Positions 29,440-41,379 of a stretch of DNA of 64,000 nucleotides are shown here, piece after piece. The notes under the pieces were generated by a model. It had not been told where the DNA came from. It saw nothing but the letters and a program-made list of their open reading frames with translations, and did not search any database. The position numbers and the translations under genes are program-made. Numbering within the stretch: position 1 is the first letter of the stretch; each line of letters starts with the position of its first letter. The stretch comes from Tessaracoccus aquimaris. Its GTDB lineage: Bacteria > Actinomycetota > Actinomycetes > Propionibacteriales > Propionibacteriaceae. The DNA lies in contig NZ_CP019606.1 in the NCBI RefSeq assembly GCF_001997345.1, positions 806,001 through 870,000 on the forward strand, written 5' to 3'.

Positions 29440-30183
29440 TCATCGGTTCAGCCAGGCGTCGAAGCTGCGTCCGACGATCTCCGCCGTGCCCGGACGTGGG
29501 ACGAGCGCGCCGCTGCGGAAGGCGACCATCACCCCTGGGATGGCCAGCGGAACGGCGAGCATCCCGCGCGGCTTGACGGCCCTCACCATGGTGAGCAGCG
29601 ACAACTCCTCAGGGCCCGCGAGGTCGACCCCGGCGTCGTCGATTTCCCCGACGGCATAGGCGGCCAGGGCGTCGGCGACAGCGATCGGGTCGACCGGTTG
29701 CATGCGCATCGACGGCACCACGGCCAGCGGCCCCCAACTGAGCCTCTCCAGCATCTGCTGCGCGAACATGTGCCACTGGGTCGACGCCACGACGCGGCAG
29801 TCGGGGTTGGCACGCAGGGCGGCGGCCTTCTCCGCGGCCTTCCCCGCGTAGTAGCCGTACGACTGGTTCTGTGGCTCGGAGCAGTTGACGATAGACAGGA
29901 GGACGTGGCGTGCTCCCCACGCGGTTGCGGCCTCTGCGCACTGCCGGGACGCGTCGGAGAAGAATCCGATGGCGGCCGCGGCCTTCGTCGTCGCGATCCC
30001 CGGGGCCTGGATGATGGCGTCGGCTGGCTCGACGGCGTCGAGGAGGCGTTGCCTGGTCAGGTCGAACCCGGTGCTCCTGCTTGCCACCCGTCCGGTGTGT
30101 CCCCGCCTCTCGAGCGACGCGAGGATGTCTCCGCGGAGTCGCCCTCCGCCGACGATCAGAACGTCCATCGACACCTTCGCCAT
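29440..30183 (-). CDS. NAD(P)H-binding, NmrA/SDR-like protein
   Basis: 247 residues with an N-terminal Rossmann motif (VLIVGGGRLRGDILASL, residues 8-24). The pattern is GGGxLxG rather than the usual GxxGxxG. AIIQAPGIATT, VLLSIVNCSEPQNQSYGYY and KAAEKAAALRANPDC follow; the YxxxK-like YYAGK stretch resembles atypical SDRs. The C-terminal third (VDPIAVADALAAYAV) is the typical NmrA-type partner-binding part. It probably acts as a redox-linked epimerase-like enzyme or NAD(P) sensor; no substrate can be named. It lies downstream of the hemA-hemH-hemQ operon on the same strand, 25 bp after hemQ, so it may be cotranscribed. Confidence 0.75.
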   Translation of the reverse strand: MAKVSMDVLIVGGGRLRGDILASLERRGHTGRVASRSTGFDLTRQRLLDAVEPADAIIQAPGIATTKAAAAIGFFSDASRQCAEAATAWGARHVLLSIVNCSEPQNQSYGYYAGKAAEKAAALRANPDCRVVASTQWHMFAQQMLERLSWGPLAVVPSMRMQPVDPIAVADALAAYAVGEIDDAGVDLAGPEELSLLTMVRAVKPRGMLAVPLAIPGVMVAFRSGALVPRPGTAEIVGRSFDAWLNR

Positions 30184-33292: not shown

Positions 33293-34299
33293 ATGAGTTC
33301 ACTCCTCACCGCACTGAGCGGCCACCGTCCCGCCCGACTCCCGGTCTGGTTCATGCGCCAGGCCGGCCGATCGCTGCCCGAGTACCTGGAAGCACGCAAA
33401 GGCACCAGCATCCTCGAGGCGTGCCTGAAGCCGGAACTGGCCGCCGAGATCACGCTGCAACCGGTCCGCAGGCACGGGGTCGACGCGGCCATCTTCTTCT
33501 CCGACATCATGACCCCGCTGGTGCTGGCAGGTGTCGACGTCGACATCCAGCCCGGCATCGGTCCCGTGATCGCCGACCCGATCCGCACCGCCTCCGACGT
33601 CGACCGCCTCGTTGCGCACGAGGCGGGCGACCCCTCGGCCATCGCGCAGGCCGTCGGGTTGGTCGTCGCCGAGTTGGGAGACGACACGCCCCTGATCGGC
33701 TTCGCGGGCGCCCCGTTCACGCTCGCCGCTTACCTCGTTGAGGGCCGCGGCTCCCGCGACCACCTCGCCGCGAGGGCCATGATGCACGCCGACCCTGATG
33801 CGTGGGAGCGGTTGCTCGGCTGGTGCGCCGACATCTCCGGGGCGTTCCTCACCGCGCAGGTCGACGCAGGGGCGCGGGCCGTGCAACTGTTCGACTCGTG
33901 GGCAGGGTCGCTGACGCGCGTCGACTACGGCACCCACGTGGCTCCGCACTCCGCCAGGACGCTCGCCGCCGTCGAGGGTCGCGTCCCGCGCATCCACTTC
34001 GGCACCGGGACCAGGCACCTCCTGACCGACATGGCGGCCCTTGGCGTCGAGGCCATGGGCATCGACTACCGCACCCCGTTGGACGAGGCCGCCTGGCTGC
34101 TGCCCGGCATTCCGCTGCAGGGCAACATCGACCCGGCGCTGCTCGCGGCAGGCTGGGACGCGCTGCAGGCCCACGCCACCGACGTCGTCGACCGGGGAAG
34201 GGCGGCGCCAGCGCACGTCGTCAACCTCGGCCACGGCGTGCCCCCACCACCGACCCCGGAGTGCTGACCGAGTTGGTCGCATTCCTGCACCAGCTATGA
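33293..34299 (+). CDS. hemE: Uroporphyrinogen decarboxylase (frameshift near the 3' end)
   Basis: Decarboxylates uroporphyrinogen III to coproporphyrinogen III. Family motifs: PVWFMRQAGRSLPEYLE near residue 18 (substrate-binding Arg), FFSDIMTPL, FAGAPFTLAAYLVEG, VQLFDSWAG and LQGNIDPALL. The frame from 33293 ends early at 34267 with a false tail after NLGHGVPP. The run CCCCC at 34241-34245 needs one more C to read GVPPTTDPGVLTELVAFLHQL and stop at 34299, the usual C-terminus, overlapping hemY (ATGA). The corrected chain has 335 residues. As read, the last ~16 residues are replaced, which may or may not destroy activity; sequence error is the simplest cause. Confidence 0.9.
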
Positions 34300-35579
34300 G
34301 CGCCGTCATCGTCGTCGGGGGCGGCCTCGCGGGCCTGCTCACCGCGTACCGCCTGACCCAGGCGGGGCACAGCGTCGTGGTCCGCGAGGCGGCGCCCCGC
34401 TGGGGAGGCATGATCGCGCCCGTCGAGGTGGCGGGCATGCTCGTCGACTCCGGCGCGGAGGCCTACGCCACGCGCGGCGGCCACGGCCGGGCACTCTGCG
34501 ACGAACTCGGCCTCGAGGTCGCGGCGCCCGAGGGCACGCCCCACGTGTGGTGGTCCAAGCGCGCCTGGCCGATGGCCGACGGGCTGCTGGGCATTCCCGG
34601 CGACCTCGACGACCCGGCGCTCGGCGTGCTCACAGACGCGGAACGCACCCGCTTCGCCGCCGATCTGACCATGGACCCTGCGATCGGTCGCGAGGCGCTC
34701 ACCATCGGCGACCTGGCCCGCATCCGACTGGGGGAGGGGGCGCTGCAGAAGCTGGTCGAGCCCGTCGCGACGGGCATCTACGCGACCGGCGCGGAACACC
34801 TTCCCCTCGCCGCGGTCGCGCCCGGCATCCACGAGGCCATCCAGGCGGAGGGCTCGCTCATCGCGGCGGTCGCCAGCCAGAAGGCCCATCGAGGCTCCGC
34901 GGTCGAGCAGCCCGTCGGCGGGATGTTCCGGCTCATCGAGACGCTGGTGGACCGCGTCGAGGACCTCGGCGCCGACATCCGCGCCGCCGCACCCATCACC
35001 CACCTGCGGCGAAGCGGCCACGGCCTCGCGGCGCACACCCACGACGGCGAGAACCTGGTGGCGGAGCGCATCGTGCTCGCCACCACCGCAGCCGTCTCGG
35101 AGCATCTGCTCCGCGACCTCGGCGTCGTCTTCGTCGCCCCGCCCGTGAACAAGGCCCGTCAGGCGATCCTCGCGCTCGACAACACGGCGCTGCGGGAGCA
35201 CCCGGTCGGCTCCGGCGTGCTGGTGGCCAGCCGCGGCGAGGTCCGCGCCAAGGCCCTGACGCACTACTCGGCGAAGTGGCCCTGGGCGCGCGAGTCGGGC
35301 CTCGAGGTGGTGCGCGTCTCGTACCCCGAGCACGTCTTCCCGACCAGGCAAGAGATCCTGGCCGACGCGTCCAGGCTGACCGGGGTCGCGGTCACCGACT
35401 CGCAGGTCAAGGGCCTCTCCTCCGTCGGTTGGGATGCCATGCCCACCCGGATCGAGGCCGCGAACCGGGACTACCTCGTCGAGGCGGCCGCAGGCGTCGG
35501 CGTCGACCTGGTCGGTGCGTGGCTCGACGGCAATGGCGTCGCGTCCGTGATCGCGGGCACCCGGCGGGTGGTCTCGTGA
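34296..35579 (+). CDS. hemY: Coproporphyrinogen III oxidase / protoporphyrinogen oxidase family flavoprotein (CgoX, HemY)
   Basis: FAD enzyme that oxidises coproporphyrinogen III to coproporphyrin III in the HemQ-type pathway. 427 residues from ATG 34296, coupled to the corrected hemE stop. The N-terminal dinucleotide motif is VIVVGGGLAGLLTAYRL, followed by GGMIAPVEVAGMLVDSGAEA. The C-terminus VDLVGAWLDGNGVASVI is the family's FAD-binding strand. It is shorter than many HemY proteins (about 450-470), mainly in the middle substrate domain. The stop overlaps the hemCD start (GTGA). Confidence 0.92.
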   Translation: MSAVIVVGGGLAGLLTAYRLTQAGHSVVVREAAPRWGGMIAPVEVAGMLVDSGAEAYATRGGHGRALCDELGLEVAAPEGTPHVWWSKRAWPMADGLLGIPGDLDDPALGVLTDAERTRFAADLTMDPAIGREALTIGDLARIRLGEGALQKLVEPVATGIYATGAEHLPLAAVAPGIHEAIQAEGSLIAAVASQKAHRGSAVEQPVGGMFRLIETLVDRVEDLGADIRAAAPITHLRRSGHGLAAHTHDGENLVAERIVLATTAAVSEHLLRDLGVVFVAPPVNKARQAILALDNTALREHPVGSGVLVASRGEVRAKALTHYSAKWPWARESGLEVVRVSYPEHVFPTRQEILADASRLTGVAVTDSQVKGLSSVGWDAMPTRIEAANRDYLVEAAAGVGVDLVGAWLDGNGVASVIAGTRRVVS

Positions 35580-37201
35580 GGCTTCGCCTCGGCACCCGCG
35601 GGTCGGCCCTGGCCGTCGCGCAGTCCGAACAGGTCGCCGAGCGGCTCCGGGCGCTCGGCCACGAGGTGACGCTCGTGCGGGTCAAGACCAGGGGCGACGT
35701 CACGCAGGGCTCGCTCGCCCGCACCGGATCGCTGGGCGTGTTCGCGGCGGAACTACGCACCGCCCTGCTCGATGGGGCGTGCGAGCTCGCCGTCCACTCG
35801 TTGAAGGACCTCCCGGTCGAGCCGGTCGACGGGTTGGCGATCGCCGCGATCCCGGTCAGGGTCGACCCGGGCGACGCACTCTGCGCCCGGGACGGTCTCA
35901 CCTTCGCCGCCCTGCCGCCCGGCGCCCGCGTCGGGACCGGATCGCCGCGCCGCGTCGCGCAGTTGCGGGGGCTGCGACCCGACCTCAGCTACGTCGACGT
36001 GCGCGGCAACGTCGGCACCCGGTTGGCGCGCGTCGCCGAGGGCGACCTGGACGCCGTCGTGCTAGCCGCCGCCGGCCTCGCCCGGCTCGGCCTGTCGGAG
36101 GCAGCCACCGACGCCCTCGACATCCTTCCGGCCCCGGGCCAGGGCGCGCTCGCGCTCGAGTGCCGCGCCGACCGCGCCGATGTCGCACAGGCCCTCGCCG
36201 CGCTCGAGGACCCGGAGACCCGCCTCGCGGTGACCGCGGAGCGGGACCTGCTCGCGGCGCTCGGCGGGGGCTGCGCCGCCCCGATCGCCGCGTTCGGCCG
36301 GTCCGGTCAGTTGGAGGCGGGCGTCTTCGCGCTCGACGGGTCCTCCGCGGTCCGCGCGACGGTCGACCTCGGCGCGGGCGCAGGAAGGGCGGCGGCCGAC
36401 CTGCTGCTGGCCGACGGGGCCGCAGGGGTCGCGGACCTCGCCGCGAACCGCGAGTCGCGCCTGGCCGACCTGCACGACGAGTCGTCTCTGTGGGGCGGAC
36501 CGGAGGTGCTCGCGGGCACCCGGGTGCTGCTACCCCGCCCGGACGGCGCGCTGGCCGACGGCATCCGCGCGGCGGGCGCCGAGGTGGTCGCCGTCCCGCT
36601 GCAACGCACCGTCGCGATCCGGCCGACCGACTGGCCGACGGACGCCGACTGGGTAGCGCTCACCTCGCCCGCGACGCTCGATGTCCTCGACGGGCTTGGG
36701 CTGACGCTTCCGGAGGGCGCCCGGATCGCCGTGGTCGGCTCAGGCACCGCTCGCTCCGCTGTCGCGCACGGGCTCACCGTTGACCGGATGCCAGCAGGCG
36801 GCGTTGGTAGCGCCCGCGCGCTGCTCGACGCCTGGCCGCAGGGCTCGGACCGGATCCTCATTCCCGGCTCCGCGCGGGCCTCCGGGGAACTGGCAAGCGG
36901 GCTGCTGGCCAAGGGCCACGTCGTCACTCCCGTGGATGTGTATACGGTGGAGACGTTGCCGACGGCGCCCGCGGCCGTGAAGGGCGACTACCAGGGCGCG
37001 ATGTTCGACGTCGTGGTGGTCACCTCCGGATCGGTAGCCGAGGCCGTCGACGCGCTGCTCGGCTGGCCCTCCGGGACCAGCGTGGTGGCGCTCGGCGAGC
37101 CGTCTGCGGCCGCGCTGGTGGCGTTGGGTGTGACCCCCGATGCCGTCGCGGCGACGCAGGACGCGGACGGCGTGATCGCCGCCATCGCGACGACGCTGTG
37201 A
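35576..37201 (+). CDS. hemC: HemC-HemD fusion: hydroxymethylbilane synthase / uroporphyrinogen-III synthase
   Basis: A 541-residue fusion. The HemC half (1 to about 300) polymerises four porphobilinogens. It keeps the key features: R/S in RLGTRGSALAVAQ, catalytic Asp78 in HSLKDLP, the SPRR pair, Arg143 and the following RGNVGTRL, and Cys233 in GGGCAAP, which carries the dipyrromethane cofactor. The HemD half (about 315-541) closes the ring to uroporphyrinogen III, with VVAVPLQRTVAI, WVALTSPATLDVLDGL, VVGSGTARSAVAHG and VDVYTVETL as family-like stretches. Fusion would channel the unstable bilane. The start is the GTG at 35576, coupled to hemY. This is the functional copy; compare the gene at 39528. 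Confidence 0.94.
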   Translation: MRLRLGTRGSALAVAQSEQVAERLRALGHEVTLVRVKTRGDVTQGSLARTGSLGVFAAELRTALLDGACELAVHSLKDLPVEPVDGLAIAAIPVRVDPGDALCARDGLTFAALPPGARVGTGSPRRVAQLRGLRPDLSYVDVRGNVGTRLARVAEGDLDAVVLAAAGLARLGLSEAATDALDILPAPGQGALALECRADRADVAQALAALEDPETRLAVTAERDLLAALGGGCAAPIAAFGRSGQLEAGVFALDGSSAVRATVDLGAGAGRAAADLLLADGAAGVADLAANRESRLADLHDESSLWGGPEVLAGTRVLLPRPDGALADGIRAAGAEVVAVPLQRTVAIRPTDWPTDADWVALTSPATLDVLDGLGLTLPEGARIAVVGSGTARSAVAHGLTVDRMPAGGVGSARALLDAWPQGSDRILIPGSARASGELASGLLAKGHVVTPVDVYTVETLPTAPAAVKGDYQGAMFDVVVVTSGSVAEAVDALLGWPSGTSVVALGEPSAAALVALGVTPDAVAATQDADGVIAAIATTL

Positions 37202-37229
37202 TGTTGATGACGCTGTGATGAGGAGAGAG

Positions 37230-38195
37230 ATGCCGAGGATTCGACCGAGGAGGCTGCGCGGCACCCCCGCGATGCGCACCCTGGTGCGCGAGGTCGAGGT
37301 GCGGGGCTCGCAACTGGTCCTCCCGATGTTCGTGGGCGAGCGGTCCGCGACGATCTCGTCGATGCCGGGCGTGCGCCGCCACGACCTCGACTCGCTGCGC
37401 CGCGCCGCGGATTCTGCGGTCGCGGCAGGGGTCGGCGGGCTGATGCTGTTCGGGGTGCCCGACGACGCCGACAAGGACGACGCGGGCGCGCAGGGACTCG
37501 CCCCTGACGGGATCCTGCAGCGCGGCCTCCGGGCGCTGCGCGACGAGGTCGGCGACTCCACCGTCATCATGGCCGACACTTGCCTCGACGAGTTCACCTC
37601 GCACGGCCACTGCGGACTGCTGCTGCCCGACGGCTCCGTCGACAACGACGCCACCGTGACGTCCTACGTCGAGATGGCCATCGCGCAGGCCGAGGCAGGC
37701 GCGCACGTCGTGTCGCCGTCGGGGATGATGGACGGCCAGGTCGCCGCGATCCGGCAGGGGCTCGACGAGGCGGGCCATGACGGCGTCGCGATCCTGGCCT
37801 ATGCGGCCAAGTACGCGTCGTCCTTCTATGGGCCGTTCCGCGAGGCCGTGACCAGTTCGCTGCAAGGCGACCGAAAGAGCTACCAGCAGGATCCGGCCAA
37901 CCGCCGCGAGGGCCTGCGCGAGGCCGTCCTCGACCTGGCCGAGGGCGCCGACATGGTGATGGTCAAGCCCGCCGGCTACTACCTGGACGTGCTCGCGGAT
38001 GTCGCGGCCGTCTCGGACGTGCCCGTGGCTGCGTACCAGGTCTCCGGCGAGTACTCGATGATCGAGGCGGCAGCGGAGCGCGGCTGGATCGACCGGAACC
38101 GGGCCGTCGAGGAGTCCGTCACCGCCATCGTGCGCGCGGGCGCCGACATCGTGTTGACCTACTGGGCCGAGGAGTTGGCTGGATGGCTGAAGTGA
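37230..38195 (+). CDS. hemB: Delta-aminolevulinic acid dehydratase (porphobilinogen synthase)
   Basis: Condenses two aminolevulinates to porphobilinogen. 321 residues. ATG 37230 follows AGGAGAG; in-frame starts at 37215 and 37218 are alternatives. Motifs: the metal-site stretch [18 protein letters not shown] with three Cys/His positions, suggesting a zinc type; [16 protein letters not shown] with the first Schiff-base Lys; and [14 protein letters not shown] with the second. [17 protein letters not shown] is also typical. The end overlaps the hemL start by 13 bp. Confidence 0.95.
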
Positions 38196-39496
38196 CCCAC
38201 AACGGGACAGAGAACGTGACAGACGACCTGTTCGCGCACGCCAGGGAGGTGATCCCCGGTGGGGTGTCCTCACCGGTGCGCGGCTACGGCTCGGTCGGCG
38301 GAACCCCCGTGTTCGTGGCGTCCGCGTCCGGGCCCTACACCACCGGCGTCGACGGCCGTGAGTACGTCGACCTGGTCTGCTCGTGGGGCCCCGCGCTGCT
38401 TGGGCACGCGCACCCCGAGGTGGTCGAGGCGGTGCAGGACGCGGCGTCGCGGGGGCTGTCGTTCGGCGCCCCGACGGCCGCCGAGGTCGAACTGGCCGAT
38501 GTGGTGCGATCCAGGGTGCCGGTCGCCGAGCAGGTTCGGTTCGTGTCGACCGGAACCGAGGCCACCATGACGGCGATCCGGCTGGCGAGGGCGGCGACCG
38601 GGCGCGATGCCATCGTCAAGTTCGCGGGCTGCTATCACGGCCACAGCGACGCCCTGCTCGCCGAGGCGGGCTCCGGAGTCGCGACGCAGGGCCTGCCCGG
38701 CTCCGCTGGCGTCACCAAGGCCGCTGCGGGCGACACCATCGTCGTCGGCTACAACGACCTGGACGCGCTCGAACGGGTCTTCGCGGAGGCGGGGGACCGG
38801 ATCGCGGCCGTCATCACGGAGGCCGCGCCTGCCAACATGGGCGTCGTGGCGCCGCAGCCCGGCTTCAACGCCGCGCTGCGTGACCTGACGGCCCGCCACG
38901 GGGCGCTCCTGATCGTCGACGAGGTGCTGACCGGGTTCCGCGTCAGCCCCGGCGGCTGGCTCGGGCTCGACGGCGGCTACGCGCCGGACCTGGTCACCTT
39001 CGGCAAGGTCATCGGCGGCGGGATGCCGCTCGCGGCGCTCGGCGGCCGCGCCGACCTGATGCAACTGCTTGCCCCCGTCGGACCCGTCTACCAGGCAGGC
39101 ACCCTGTCGGGAAACCCGCTCGCCACCGCGGCTGGGCTCGCCACGCTGCGACTGGCCGACGACGCCGTCTACGCCACCGTCGACGCCCGCTCGCTCGAAC
39201 TGCAGGCAGCGGTCGCCGACGCGCTGACCGCCGCCTCGGTGCCGCACCACATCTCGACGGCGGGCAACCTGTTCTCGGTGTTCTTCCGCGAGGGGCCCGT
39301 CGCGAACTACGCAGACGCCAAGGCCCAGGACCAGGCGGCGTTCGCCCGGTTCTTCCACGCCATGCTCGATTCCGGGGTGGCGCTGCCGCCGTCGGCCTTC
39401 GAGGCATGGTTCCTGTCCGCCGCGCACGACGACGTGGCTATGGGTCGGATTGTCGAGGCTCTTCCGGGGGCCGCGCGGGCGGCCGCGCATTCATGA
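38183..39496 (+). CDS. hemL: Glutamate-1-semialdehyde 2,1-aminomutase
   Basis: PLP enzyme that makes 5-aminolevulinate from the HemA product. 437 residues from ATG 38183, with GAGGAG 8 nt upstream inside hemB; GTG 38216 is a shorter alternative. Motifs: [76 protein letters not shown] and the PLP Lys in [17 protein letters not shown] near residue 275. [18 protein letters not shown] completes the site. It lies on the opposite strand from its partner hemA, at the far end of the divergent locus. Confidence 0.96.
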
Positions 39497-39527
39497 GAAG
39501 CTTGGTCGTCGCAAGAGGGAAGGATCA

Positions 39528-41201
39528 ATGGTGAAGCTTCGATTGGGCACGCGCGGGTCCGCGCTGGCGCTGGCACGCTCCGAAAGGGTTGCCGAGCAGT
39601 TGCGGGGCGCGGGGCATGAGGTCGAGGTCGTGCGTGTTGCGACATCAGGCGCCGACTCGAACCACATGCCCGACGGGTACTCCGTCGTCGTGTTTGCGAA
39701 GGAACTGCGAGAGGCGCTGCGCTCCGCGGAGTGCGACGTCGTCGTCCACTCGATCAAGGACATTCCGCTGACGGACGAGCCGGACGGGCTGACGTTCCCG
39801 GCGGTGCTCGCCCGCGGCGACCATCGCGACGCGCTCGTGACCTTGAAGGGCGTCCCGCTGTCGGCGCTGCCGCGCAAGTCGCGCATCGGTGTCACGTCGC
39901 TGCGGCGGATGGCGCAGTTGCGCGCGCTCCGCCCCGACCTGACGTTCATCGACGTCGGCGGCACGCTTGAGGAGCGGCTGCGCCGTCTCGAGCCGGGCGA
40001 CCTGGACGGCGTCGTGCTGTCGGCCGCCGGCCTGAAGGCGCTCGGCCTCGAGGACCGCGTCTCCGAGTACCTGCCGATCCTGCCCGCGCCCGGCCAGGGC
40101 GCGCTTGCGCTGGAGTGCCGCGCCGACGACACCGACCTGGTCAAGGCGCTCGACGAGTTCGACGACATCGAGACCCGGATCTGCATCGACGCCGAGCGCG
40201 CCGTGCTGACTGGCCTCGGCACCACGTACGTCGCCCCCGTCGGGGCGCTCGCGTCGCGTCGCGGCATCCTCGGCCTCAAGGCGGGCGTGTTCTCCGTCGA
40301 CGGCACCAAGCGCGTCGTGCTGGAGATCGGCCTGCCGACCTCCGAACTGCACGCGCAGCGCACCGGCCACAACGTCGCCCACGCGCTGCTGCAGCGCAAG
40401 GCCGAGCGGTTCTTCTCGCCCGAGGCGATCGCCAACATCGATCTGTCGGAGGAGCACGACGACGAGTCGATCTTCATTGAGAGCGCCGCAGACGACGACC
40501 GCATCCGCGTCCTGCTGCCGCGCCAGGAGGGTCGCCTCGCGCAGACGATGCGCTCCAACGACCTGCGCGTCGACACCGCGACGCTGCAGGAGGCAAAGCT
40601 CGTCAACGCCGACAACATCATGCCGTGGGGCGACTGGGTGGTCATCCCGTCGGCCCAGACGATGTGGGCGCTGCGCGAGCGCGGCTGGGACATCCCCGAC
40701 ACCAAGAAGATCGCAGCCATGGGCAGCACGACCCGCCAGGTCGTCGAGGAGGCCGGCTACAGCGTCGACCTGAGCCCCGAGGGCACCGCAAGCTCGGTCG
40801 CCCTTGTCGACGCGTTCCCCGTCGCCGAAGGCGAGCAGCGGGTCGTGATCGTGTGCGCCGACCAACTCTCCACGAAACTGGAGGACGGCCTGCGGCAGAA
40901 GGGCTACACCGTCGAGCGTTGCGAGATCTACACGATGGCTGACGTCGAGGAGATCTACCCCGAGCTGAAGGAGAAGTGGGACGACGGCGCCTGGGACGCG
41001 ATCCTGCTCAGCCAGCCGTCGCTCGCCGACGCCTACGTGAACCTGCTCGGCCACCGCGACGACGTCTCGGTCCTCGCCTGGGACGAGCCGACCGCCGACG
41101 CCCTCAAGGCCGCCGGGGTGCCCGTCCTGGACGTGGCGATGTCGAAGGATCACTTCGGCGTGGCGGCCCTTGCCCGGACCTTGAAGAAGGGCCGCAGTTA
41201 G
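39528..41201 (+). CDS. Second HemC-HemD-like fusion lacking the dipyrromethane cysteine
   Basis: A 557-residue paralog of the protein encoded at 35576. The first ~320 residues are HemC-like (RLGTRGSALALARSERVAEQ, HSIKDIP with Asp78, SLRRMAQLRALRPDL, ILPAPGQGALALECRADD) and the last ~230 are HemD-like (PWGDWVVIPSAQTMWALRER, DLSPEGTASSVALVDAF). Two features essential in hydroxymethylbilane synthases are lost. The cofactor-bearing Cys is Tyr234 in LGTTYVAP, and the Arg of the RGNVGTRL motif is Gly144 in VGGTLEERL. It therefore should not make hydroxymethylbilane. An active HemD half, a chaperone or scaffold for the true enzyme, or a tetrapyrrole-sensing role are possible. It is last in the heme operon, behind GAGGGAAGG, with a strong terminator after it. 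Confidence 0.85.
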   Translation: MVKLRLGTRGSALALARSERVAEQLRGAGHEVEVVRVATSGADSNHMPDGYSVVVFAKELREALRSAECDVVVHSIKDIPLTDEPDGLTFPAVLARGDHRDALVTLKGVPLSALPRKSRIGVTSLRRMAQLRALRPDLTFIDVGGTLEERLRRLEPGDLDGVVLSAAGLKALGLEDRVSEYLPILPAPGQGALALECRADDTDLVKALDEFDDIETRICIDAERAVLTGLGTTYVAPVGALASRRGILGLKAGVFSVDGTKRVVLEIGLPTSELHAQRTGHNVAHALLQRKAERFFSPEAIANIDLSEEHDDESIFIESAADDDRIRVLLPRQEGRLAQTMRSNDLRVDTATLQEAKLVNADNIMPWGDWVVIPSAQTMWALRERGWDIPDTKKIAAMGSTTRQVVEEAGYSVDLSPEGTASSVALVDAFPVAEGEQRVVIVCADQLSTKLEDGLRQKGYTVERCEIYTMADVEEIYPELKEKWDDGAWDAILLSQPSLADAYVNLLGHRDDVSVLAWDEPTADALKAAGVPVLDVAMSKDHFGVAALARTLKKGRS

Positions 41202-41215
41202 CGGCTTCTGAGCGT

Positions 41216-41253
41216 GAAAATCGGGCCTGGGAACCACCCCAGGCCCGATTTTC
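41216..41253 (+). terminator. Terminator of the hemE-hemCD2 operon
   Basis: A 16-bp perfect stem, GAAAATCGGGCCTGGG (41216-41231) with its complement at 41238-41253, and loop AACCAC. The right arm ends in TTTTC, so it can act as a Rho-independent terminator. Confidence 0.92.
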
Positions 41254-41303: not shown

Positions 41304-41379
41304 GGGGCTATGGCGCAGTTGGTAGCGCGCTTCCATGGCATGGAAGAGGCCAGGGGTTCGAATCCCCTTAGCTCCACCA
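41304..41379 (+). tRNA. tRNA-Ala (anticodon GGC)
   Basis: Complete cloverleaf: acceptor GGGGCTA/TAGCTCC with one G-T pair, D arm GCGC...GCGC region with the GTTGGTA loop, anticodon stem CTTCC/GGAAG around AT-GGC-AT, and a T arm AGGGG-TTCGAAT-CCCCT. The discriminator is A and CCA is encoded (41377-41379). Anticodon GGC reads GCC/GCU alanine codons. The gene stands between the heme operon and an accessory region, a common insertion site for mobile DNA. Confidence 0.97.

Follow-up and report, generated by a model that had tools for sequence, protein, structure and literature searches.

The two HemC-HemD fusions of the heme locus

The window analysed here, a stretch of 64,000 nucleotides (nt) from the single-contig, 3.93 Mb assembly of Tessaracoccus aquimaris (contig NZ_CP019606.1, positions 806,001 to 870,000), carries a heme locus that spans approximately 30 kb to 41 kb. 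Two of its genes, CD1 and CD2, fuse a hydroxymethylbilane synthase domain (HemC, HMBS) to a uroporphyrinogen-III synthase domain (HemD). An earlier note on this DNA had recognized both fusions, as Pfam bears out, and had singled out the second as a maintained paralogue without its cofactor cysteine. We find that CD2 has lost the cysteine that anchors the dipyrromethane cofactor, that it is present genus-wide as a single clade under purifying selection, that both of its domains have confidently predicted folds, and that constraint has moved from the HemC half to the HemD half, strongly in a sister branch (CD2B) and mildly in the branch of the window (CD2A). Beyond the earlier note, the change is old and genus-wide, CD2B has lost more of HemC, the HemD half of CD2A is itself altered, and a separate Cys-less family exists. 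The features that carry the argument are given below, where counts refer to the 60 CD2A clusters nearest to CD2 (P0003-P0062, the window's own included, from the best 120 listed of 4156 matches).

35576..37201, + strand: CD1, intact HemC-HemD fusion of 541 amino acids by Pfam, with Cys233 (codon 36272-36274), Arg143 (codon 36002-36004), the Lys-Asp pair and the conserved arginines present
39528..41201, + strand: CD2, Cys-less HemC-HemD fusion of 557 amino acids with an ATG start (PF01379, HEM4)
39756..39761, + strand: Lys77-Asp78 of CD2, retained catalytic pair (E. coli Lys83-Asp84), each in 60/60 clusters
39903..39908, + strand: Arg126-Arg127 of the SLRR motif (124-127), retained (E. coli Arg131-Arg132), in 59/60 and 60/60 clusters
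39957..39959, + strand: Gly144 codon at the E. coli Arg149 column, Gly in 42/60 and Arg in 2/60 clusters
40227..40229, + strand: Tyr234 codon at the E. coli Cys242 column (dipyrromethane anchor), Tyr in 60/60 clusters
40488..41198, + strand: HemD half of CD2, about residues 321-557

Loss of the anchor cysteine

The residue register was taken from an alignment of CD2 with E. coli HemC and 122 proteins, and from a second MAFFT method applied to 87 HemC open reading frames (ORFs) from genome loci; phmmer against E. coli 1AH5 gives the identical register for CD2. All three place Tyr234 at the Cys242 column, which CD1 fills with Cys233, as the earlier note had proposed. The same tyrosine, a change that the note had suggested looking for in Propionibacteriaceae genomes, recurs in every one of the nearest clusters. 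Its second substitution, arginine to Gly144, stands for the window but is not uniform across the branch. The kept Asp78, SLRR pair and overall fold are confirmed by the alignment and the predicted structure. In E. coli numbering, CD2 of the window is further changed at Asp46, at loop positions 55 and 59 and at Arg176, and is unchanged at Arg11, Ser13, Ser81, Lys83, Asp84, Arg131, Arg132, Arg155 and Gln198. Asp46 is present in none of the 60 CD2A clusters and Arg176 in 25, while Arg155 (Arg150 of CD2) is kept in all of them. Clusters of the CD1 type have cysteine at the anchor column in 59 of 59 cases (P0063-P0122 minus P0116, which was excluded as a CD2B member).

The earlier note had raised the possibility of another cysteine in the cofactor loop. 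The cysteines of the window's CD2 are residues 69, 197, 219, 443 and 465, none of them in that loop. Over the columns that match E. coli 234-250, cysteine is found in 0 of 22 CD2A and 0 of 14 CD2B genome copies, and in one of the 60 database clusters (P0044), five residues ahead of its tyrosine. The loop alignment thus rules out a substitute cysteine in place of the anchor across the genome copies and the 60 clusters. Separately, Cys219 (window 40182-40184), 15 residues ahead of Tyr234, occurs in 46/60 CD2A clusters at a column where CD1 mostly has alanine, and cysteine recurs at this column in CD2B.

In CD2B the HemC half is worse damaged than in CD2A. Lys83 is replaced by His or Asn and Asp84 by Arg in 14/14 copies, Arg155 is gone in 14/14 (a call sensitive to the alignment), and part of the active-site loop is missing. 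We also scored the 81 HemC columns that are at least 85% constant among 30 non-redundant Cys-type fusions: CD1 keeps a fraction of 0.95, CD2A 0.74, CD2B 0.50 and a further Cys-less family described below (the Thr family) 0.65.

Elsewhere the cysteine is constant in two further samples. Using the CD2A alignment as query against one genome per species and taking the best 80 of 136 loci, 14 of which are CD2A, we find it in 66/66 HemC loci outside the genus (L107-L172; several phyla, some of them actinobacterial), as well as in 81/81 other proteins (P0161-P0241; P0242 was left out because its frame could not be aligned across the cofactor loop). Published work points the same way. For human HMBS, a saturation map shows that the cofactor cysteine does not accept substitutions and that K98, D99, R149, R150, R173 and R195 are generally intolerant as well; R167, the equivalent of E. 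coli Arg149, and the loop lysines proved tolerant (PMC9934555). Mass spectrometry of human HMBS finds pyrrole chains on Cys261 only (PMC7907807), and according to a structural review it is the cysteine that pulls the cofactor along, past the catalytic Asp (PMC8561815). Taken together, these sources make the loss of the cysteine the most important change in CD2, whereas the loss of the R167 equivalent and of the loop lysines is not necessarily disabling alone. That the HemC half of CD2 cannot hold the dipyrromethane cofactor, and would hence make no hydroxymethylbilane, is well supported by these residue comparisons. Among titles and abstract openings, with subscription papers outside the scope, we found no report of a Cys-less HemC or of a CD2-type paralogue.

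Domain profiles and current names

The loss is not accompanied by a loss of the predicted fold. Pfam recognizes the window's CD2 with 186.9 bits for PF01379 and 101.3 bits for HEM4, and both halves are confidently predicted, with predicted local distance difference test (pLDDT) values of 89.9 and 90.1 and matches to HMBS and HemD structures. The first half is thus predicted to have the HMBS fold, and the second has both the fold and the profile of HemD. CD1 and CD2 of the window exceed the NCBIfam hemC cut-off of 164 bits. Three CD2A proteins score 226.9 (window), 214.4 and 212.6 and one Thr-family protein 212.9, while the CD2B proteins P0246 and P0263 fall beneath it with 132.6 and 121.8 bits.

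The CD2A clusters that bear a source protein name are called hydroxymethylbilane synthase, as are most of the named CD2A and Thr-family proteins together. Judged by its residues, CD2 does not warrant this name, and for CD2A the label is probably wrong.

Distribution and history of CD2

The earlier note would have been undone by a gene confined to a single genome and broken by frameshifts; the opposite is found. We searched 197 Propionibacteriaceae genomes, 38 of them of the same genus (the window's own included; most records name them Tessaracoccus), and sorted the HemC ORFs of the same-genus loci by their anchor column, which gave 36 CD1, 22 CD2A (Tyr) and 14 CD2B. CD2 is present in 36/38 same-genus genomes, several of them single-contig assemblies, and in none of these is it interrupted by a stop. 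The two genomes without a match are G190 (87% complete, 440 contigs) and G196 (60% complete), and because both are incomplete a real absence is not established there. By record names CD2A occurs in T. bendigoensis, lapidicaptus, massiliensis, oleiagri, caeni and others, and also in records labelled Propionibacteriaceae, Propionibacterium or Arachnia, while CD2B occurs in T. antarcticus and T. terricola.

Maximum-likelihood analysis of 81 fusions joins CD2A and CD2B in one clade with a support of 99 in the Shimodaira-Hasegawa-like approximate likelihood-ratio test (SH-aLRT), and this clade adjoins the CD1 copies of the same genus; both the grouping and its place recur in a second tree of 61 fusions. 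The split of CD2 into branches A and B parallels the genome split seen in CD1. We read this as a single old duplication, at the base of the genus, and an early loss of the anchor, and a Gln19 to Arg change common to both branches (22/22 CD2A, 13/14 CD2B) agrees with such a history.

The position of CD2 varies. It directly follows hemL in 16/22 branch A and 3/14 branch B genomes, it faces chdC, on the opposite side of the heme locus, in eight branch B genomes, and it is retained even off the heme operon. Clustering its neighbours with a crude gene caller at 35/36 loci (G143 was missed) recovered heme genes and general synteny. No functional partner was found among the clustered neighbours, and the other recurring ones inspected, whose sequences were read by eye, suggest no common pathway.

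Selection on the two halves

We estimated ratios of nonsynonymous to synonymous substitution rates (dN/dS) by the Nei-Gojobori method for the 22 closest pairs of each branch; the values are rough where dS exceeds 1, and the pairs are not independent. G129, where CD1 is cut by a contig end, was excluded from these and the following rates, and G194 contributes no CD1 sequence. In branch A the range is 0.05-0.39 for HemC2 and 0.09-0.65 for HemD2, compared with 0.07-0.28 and 0.14-0.51 for the two halves of CD1. For branch B the corresponding ranges are 0.04-0.26 and 0.08-0.31 in CD2, and 0.10-0.26 and 0.12-0.31 in CD1. Purifying selection thus acts on both halves of CD2 in both branches. The comparison between copies that the earlier note had called for therefore agrees with its view of a paralogue that is not decaying.

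Relative rates were compared by three measures, namely tree length under LG+G4, tree length under LG and raw pairwise difference, each with 100 column bootstraps, in alignments of 20 branch A and 14 branch B genomes and of 10 and 13 genomes from two single-fusion genera (two of 20 additional stretches, G171 and G146, were left unused). Within CD2B, HemD evolves more slowly than in CD1: the HemD2/HemD1 ratio is 0.73, 0.80 and 0.85 by the three measures in this order, with 0, 2 and 1 of 100 bootstraps reaching 1 or more. The HemC2/HemC1 ratio is 1.16, 1.23 and 1.38 in branch B and 0.82, 0.94 and 1.19 in branch A. When the two halves of the same gene are compared, each of the three measures gives CD2 a smaller HemD/HemC ratio than CD1 in both branches. 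The ratio falls from 1.55, 1.45 and 1.45 in CD1 to 0.97, 0.94 and 0.89 in CD2B, and from 1.50, 1.58 and 1.49 to 1.27, 1.31 and 1.22 in CD2A. In the single-fusion genera it is 1.11, 1.26 and 1.25, and 1.61, 1.78 and 1.50. Relative to CD1, CD2B shows a clear shift of constraint from HemC to HemD; in CD2A the shift has the same direction but is small and weak, and it varies in size with the measure used. These rates speak for a function of the HemD half, unambiguously in the sister branch CD2B only.

A second Cys-less family

A HemC-like ORF in G048 (L092 3047-5119) led to 38 Cys-less clusters (P0123-P0160), here called the Thr family, with which loci L173, L174, L175 and L186 are also associated. 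At the anchor column 35 clusters have Thr and one each Ser, Val and Ile, the alignments of the last two being uncertain. Asp84 is kept in 37/37 readable clusters, and Arg131 is replaced by Leu in 37/37. The family occurs in two other genera of the Propionibacteriaceae: in one it is represented by G006, G030 and G048, and in the other by the more diverged G043 (Thr) and G121 (His), whose assignment goes by best match alone.

A single origin of all Cys-less fusions was rejected. Forcing the Thr family together with CD2 costs 32.6 log-likelihood units, with a p-value of 0.006 in the approximately unbiased test (29 rows constrained together, with 10/38 Thr-family clusters in the tree). The case for a separate origin is strong but, with long branches involved, not final. 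In G048 and G006 the Thr-family gene lies some kilobases from a putative methyltransferase-HemD-like gene.

Surroundings of the two fusions

The forward strand of the heme locus reads hemE-hemY-CD1-hemB-hemL-CD2. The remaining features are:

minus strand: chdC, a chlorite-dismutase-type gene (PF06778)
minus strand: two genes that we take from their translations to be hemH and hemA
+ strand: hemE (PF01208)
+ strand, between hemE and CD1: presumably hemY, by its translation
37215..38195, + strand: a gene whose translation we assume to be that of hemB
38183..39496, + strand: presumably hemL, again by translation, immediately 5' of CD2
core about 41216..41253, + strand: strong terminator-like hairpin 3' of CD2, with A/T at the stem ends
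41304-41379, 3' of the hairpin: tRNA-Ala(GGC)

The gap from hemL to CD2 is 31 bp and contains a ribosome-binding-like GGGAAGGA at 39517-39524, ahead of the ATG. The earlier note had CD2 at the end of the operon in front of a strong terminator. CD2 is indeed the last gene, and the hairpin is strong (-39.9 kcal/mol, z -7.75), but there is no classic U-tract behind the stem and the hairpin is absent from the output of the consensus terminator scan. Elsewhere in the genome a third HemD domain is found in a TP_methylase-HEM4 fusion (PF00590, PF02602; L203 5712-7307, G000:C1 10711-12306), directly 3' of a glutaredoxin-like gene.

Past the tRNA-Ala the window holds DUF6884/GIY-YIG and HNH genes, and G178 has a recombinase-like gene at the corresponding place (L033 below 6.4 kb, judged by eye), as if the tRNA site were an insertion point for mobile DNA. 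On the other side of the locus, a gene that by eye resembles an NAD(P)-binding reductase (29440-30183; no Pfam match at E 0.01) adjoins chdC, and such a gene adjoins CD2 in some branch B genomes. The hemE frame closes, at 34235-34299, with a brief, unusual stretch behind NLGHGVPP; in 8/8 relatives checked a conserved C-terminus stands there instead. Since this spot contains a run of C bases, a frame change is likely, either present in the genome or produced by a sequencing error.

What CD2 may do

Two properties make CD2, as judged from its residues and substitution rates, a candidate for a maintained pseudoenzyme: a residue required for catalysis is lost and the loss is fixed in the lineage, and the gene is under purifying selection. 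We infer its lack of HemC activity, a HemD-type function and a role in docking or channelling from these data. The reading we prefer, at a probability of about 0.38, is that the non-catalytic HemC half may serve as a docking or binding module for a selected HemD half. A bifunctional HemC-HemD gene would have been duplicated once at the base of the genus to give CD2, and the fusion would have been retained as a whole while selection tilted to its HemD half. That half would act as another domain of the uroporphyrinogen-III synthase type, or as a relative of it that handles substrate. The dead HemC domain could sit on, or compete with, holo-CD1, or alternatively hold porphobilinogen or bilane without polymerizing it, so that unstable hydroxymethylbilane would get to a HemD site before it cyclizes to the wrong isomer. 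A HemC fold without an anchor, the fusion itself and the weight on HemD are common to both branches, and a HemD-type function aided by a non-catalytic HemC domain would therefore cover both. The HemD half of CD2B is well preserved. Of the 25 HemD columns that pass the same constancy threshold, CD1 keeps a mean fraction of 0.82, CD2B 0.81, CD2A 0.71 and the Thr family 0.69. The Pfam HEM4 score is 110.8 bits for CD1, 115.3 for the CD2B protein P0246 and 109.8 for P0134. CD2B looks like a HemD protein that carries a dead HemC. The proportion of nonsynonymous differences (pN) in HemD is lower for CD2 than for CD1 in 83/91 pairs of branch B and in 111/190 of branch A.

Several observations weigh against this reading. 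The HemD half of CD2A, the branch of the window, has Pro for Thr363, Val for Leu428 and Asp for Gly507 (CD1 numbering), three positions that are unchanged in CD1. Two more columns are lost in both CD2A and CD1, and the Tyr456 column is retained in CD2A. Since positions that CD1 keeps are gone, HemD2 may be dead as well in this branch. The genome has two other HemD domains, in CD1 and in the TP_methylase-HEM4 fusion, so that a third needs a reason. The slower evolution of HemD2 than of HemD1 depends on the model in branch A, with ratios of 0.70 and 0.78 by the tree lengths (0 of 100 bootstraps at 1 or more in each) and of 0.97 by raw difference (33 of 100). By raw difference HemC2 is faster than HemC1 in both branches, and in HemC the pN of CD2 is below that of CD1 in just 77/190 (A) and 16/91 (B) pairs. 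In 9/36 genomes the sampled stretch has no other heme gene near CD2 (L034, L051, L053, L055, L057, L058, L070, L072, L076). Lastly, Lys77, Asp78, Arg127 and Arg150 are each present in 60/60 CD2A clusters, which points to a ligand bound by HemC.

The last point leads to a tentative alternative, in which CD2A would be a double pseudoenzyme acting as a sensor or regulator, its cleft binding porphobilinogen or bilane without turning it over and thereby tuning CD1 or another early step of the pathway. Because the porphobilinogen-binding residues are invariant while the HemD positions are changed, a binding or sensing role in branch A is nearly as likely as a HemD-type function. On the other hand, CD2B is under purifying selection without Lys83, Asp84, Arg155 and part of the loop. 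Binding at the HemC site is therefore not the function common to both branches. Nor does Pfam match any DNA-binding or signalling domain in CD2.

A rather improbable third reading is that CD2 is a structural partner, which would form complexes with CD1 and stabilize or inhibit it with neither half needing a ligand. Selection on both halves in both branches despite their differing catalytic residues would fit such a role, as would the confidently predicted folds, but it leaves the conserved cleft residues of CD2A unexplained, and human HMBS is mostly monomeric (PMC7907807).

The boldest remaining reading, a live hydroxymethylbilane synthase in CD2A in which Tyr234, or some other residue (Cys219, for instance), would carry the cofactor, is very unlikely. 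In its favour, the tyrosine is invariant (60/60), Asp78, Lys77 and the Arg pair are retained, and Cys219 is frequent (46/60). The human map tolerates changes of the Arg149 equivalent and of the loop lysines, but it finds the cysteine and Arg195 intolerant (PMC9934555). Asp46 is moreover lost in every CD2A cluster, Cys219 lies 15 residues ahead of Tyr234, and CD1 is present to supply the activity. Arg176, which we take to be the equivalent of human R195, is kept in just 25/60 clusters.

A simple subfunctionalization, with CD1 keeping HemC and CD2 taking over HemD, is not supported, because CD1 retains canonical HemD motifs and its HemD/HemC ratio (1.50 in A, 1.55 in B) is near that of one single-fusion control (1.61) and above that of the other (1.11), so that a relaxation of HemD1 is not demonstrated. 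A decaying duplicate or an assembly artefact, which the lost catalytic residues might suggest, is contradicted by stop-free copies in 36/38 same-genus genomes searched, several of them single-contig, and by low dN/dS.

Returning to the docking or binding module, a wider version of it would make Cys-less HemC-HemD fusions recurrent and unrecognized handlers of tetrapyrrole intermediates. The dead HemC domain would capture porphobilinogen or bilane or dock on the working enzyme, the HemD domain would close or sense the ring, and the arrangement, having evolved at least twice in one family, would serve for channelling or feedback where the routes to heme, siroheme and B12 diverge. We consider this conceivable, though on balance doubtful. 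The anchor cysteine has been treated as a fixture of HMBS, and two lineages have dropped it, with selection on the retained gene measured, as dN/dS, in CD2 only. They offer a natural system for asking how unstable hydroxymethylbilane is passed on to its next enzyme and whether regulation of the pathway acts at this step. The likely naming error in CD2A and the Thr family could meanwhile mislead metabolic models and predictions of essential genes.

Comparison with known systems

Compared with hydroxymethylbilane synthase (HemC; TIGR00212, PF01379), CD2A differs by its anchor tyrosine, by Arg149, which is mostly Gly, and by the loss of Asp46; CD2B differs further, with Lys83 and Asp84 gone. Compared with uroporphyrinogen-III synthase (HemD; PF02602), CD2A departs at Thr363 and Gly507, whereas CD2B is as canonical as CD1. 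With the HemC-HemD fusions of the Propionibacteriaceae of the CD1 type, CD2 shares its domain order, a similar length and a neighbouring branch of the tree, but CD1 has the HemC catalytic residues and a higher HemD/HemC variation ratio. The Thr family resembles CD2 in being a Cys-less fusion with Asp84 retained and HemD present, and is unlike it in having Leu at Arg131, Thr instead of Tyr at the anchor in 35/38 clusters, and a separate grouping.
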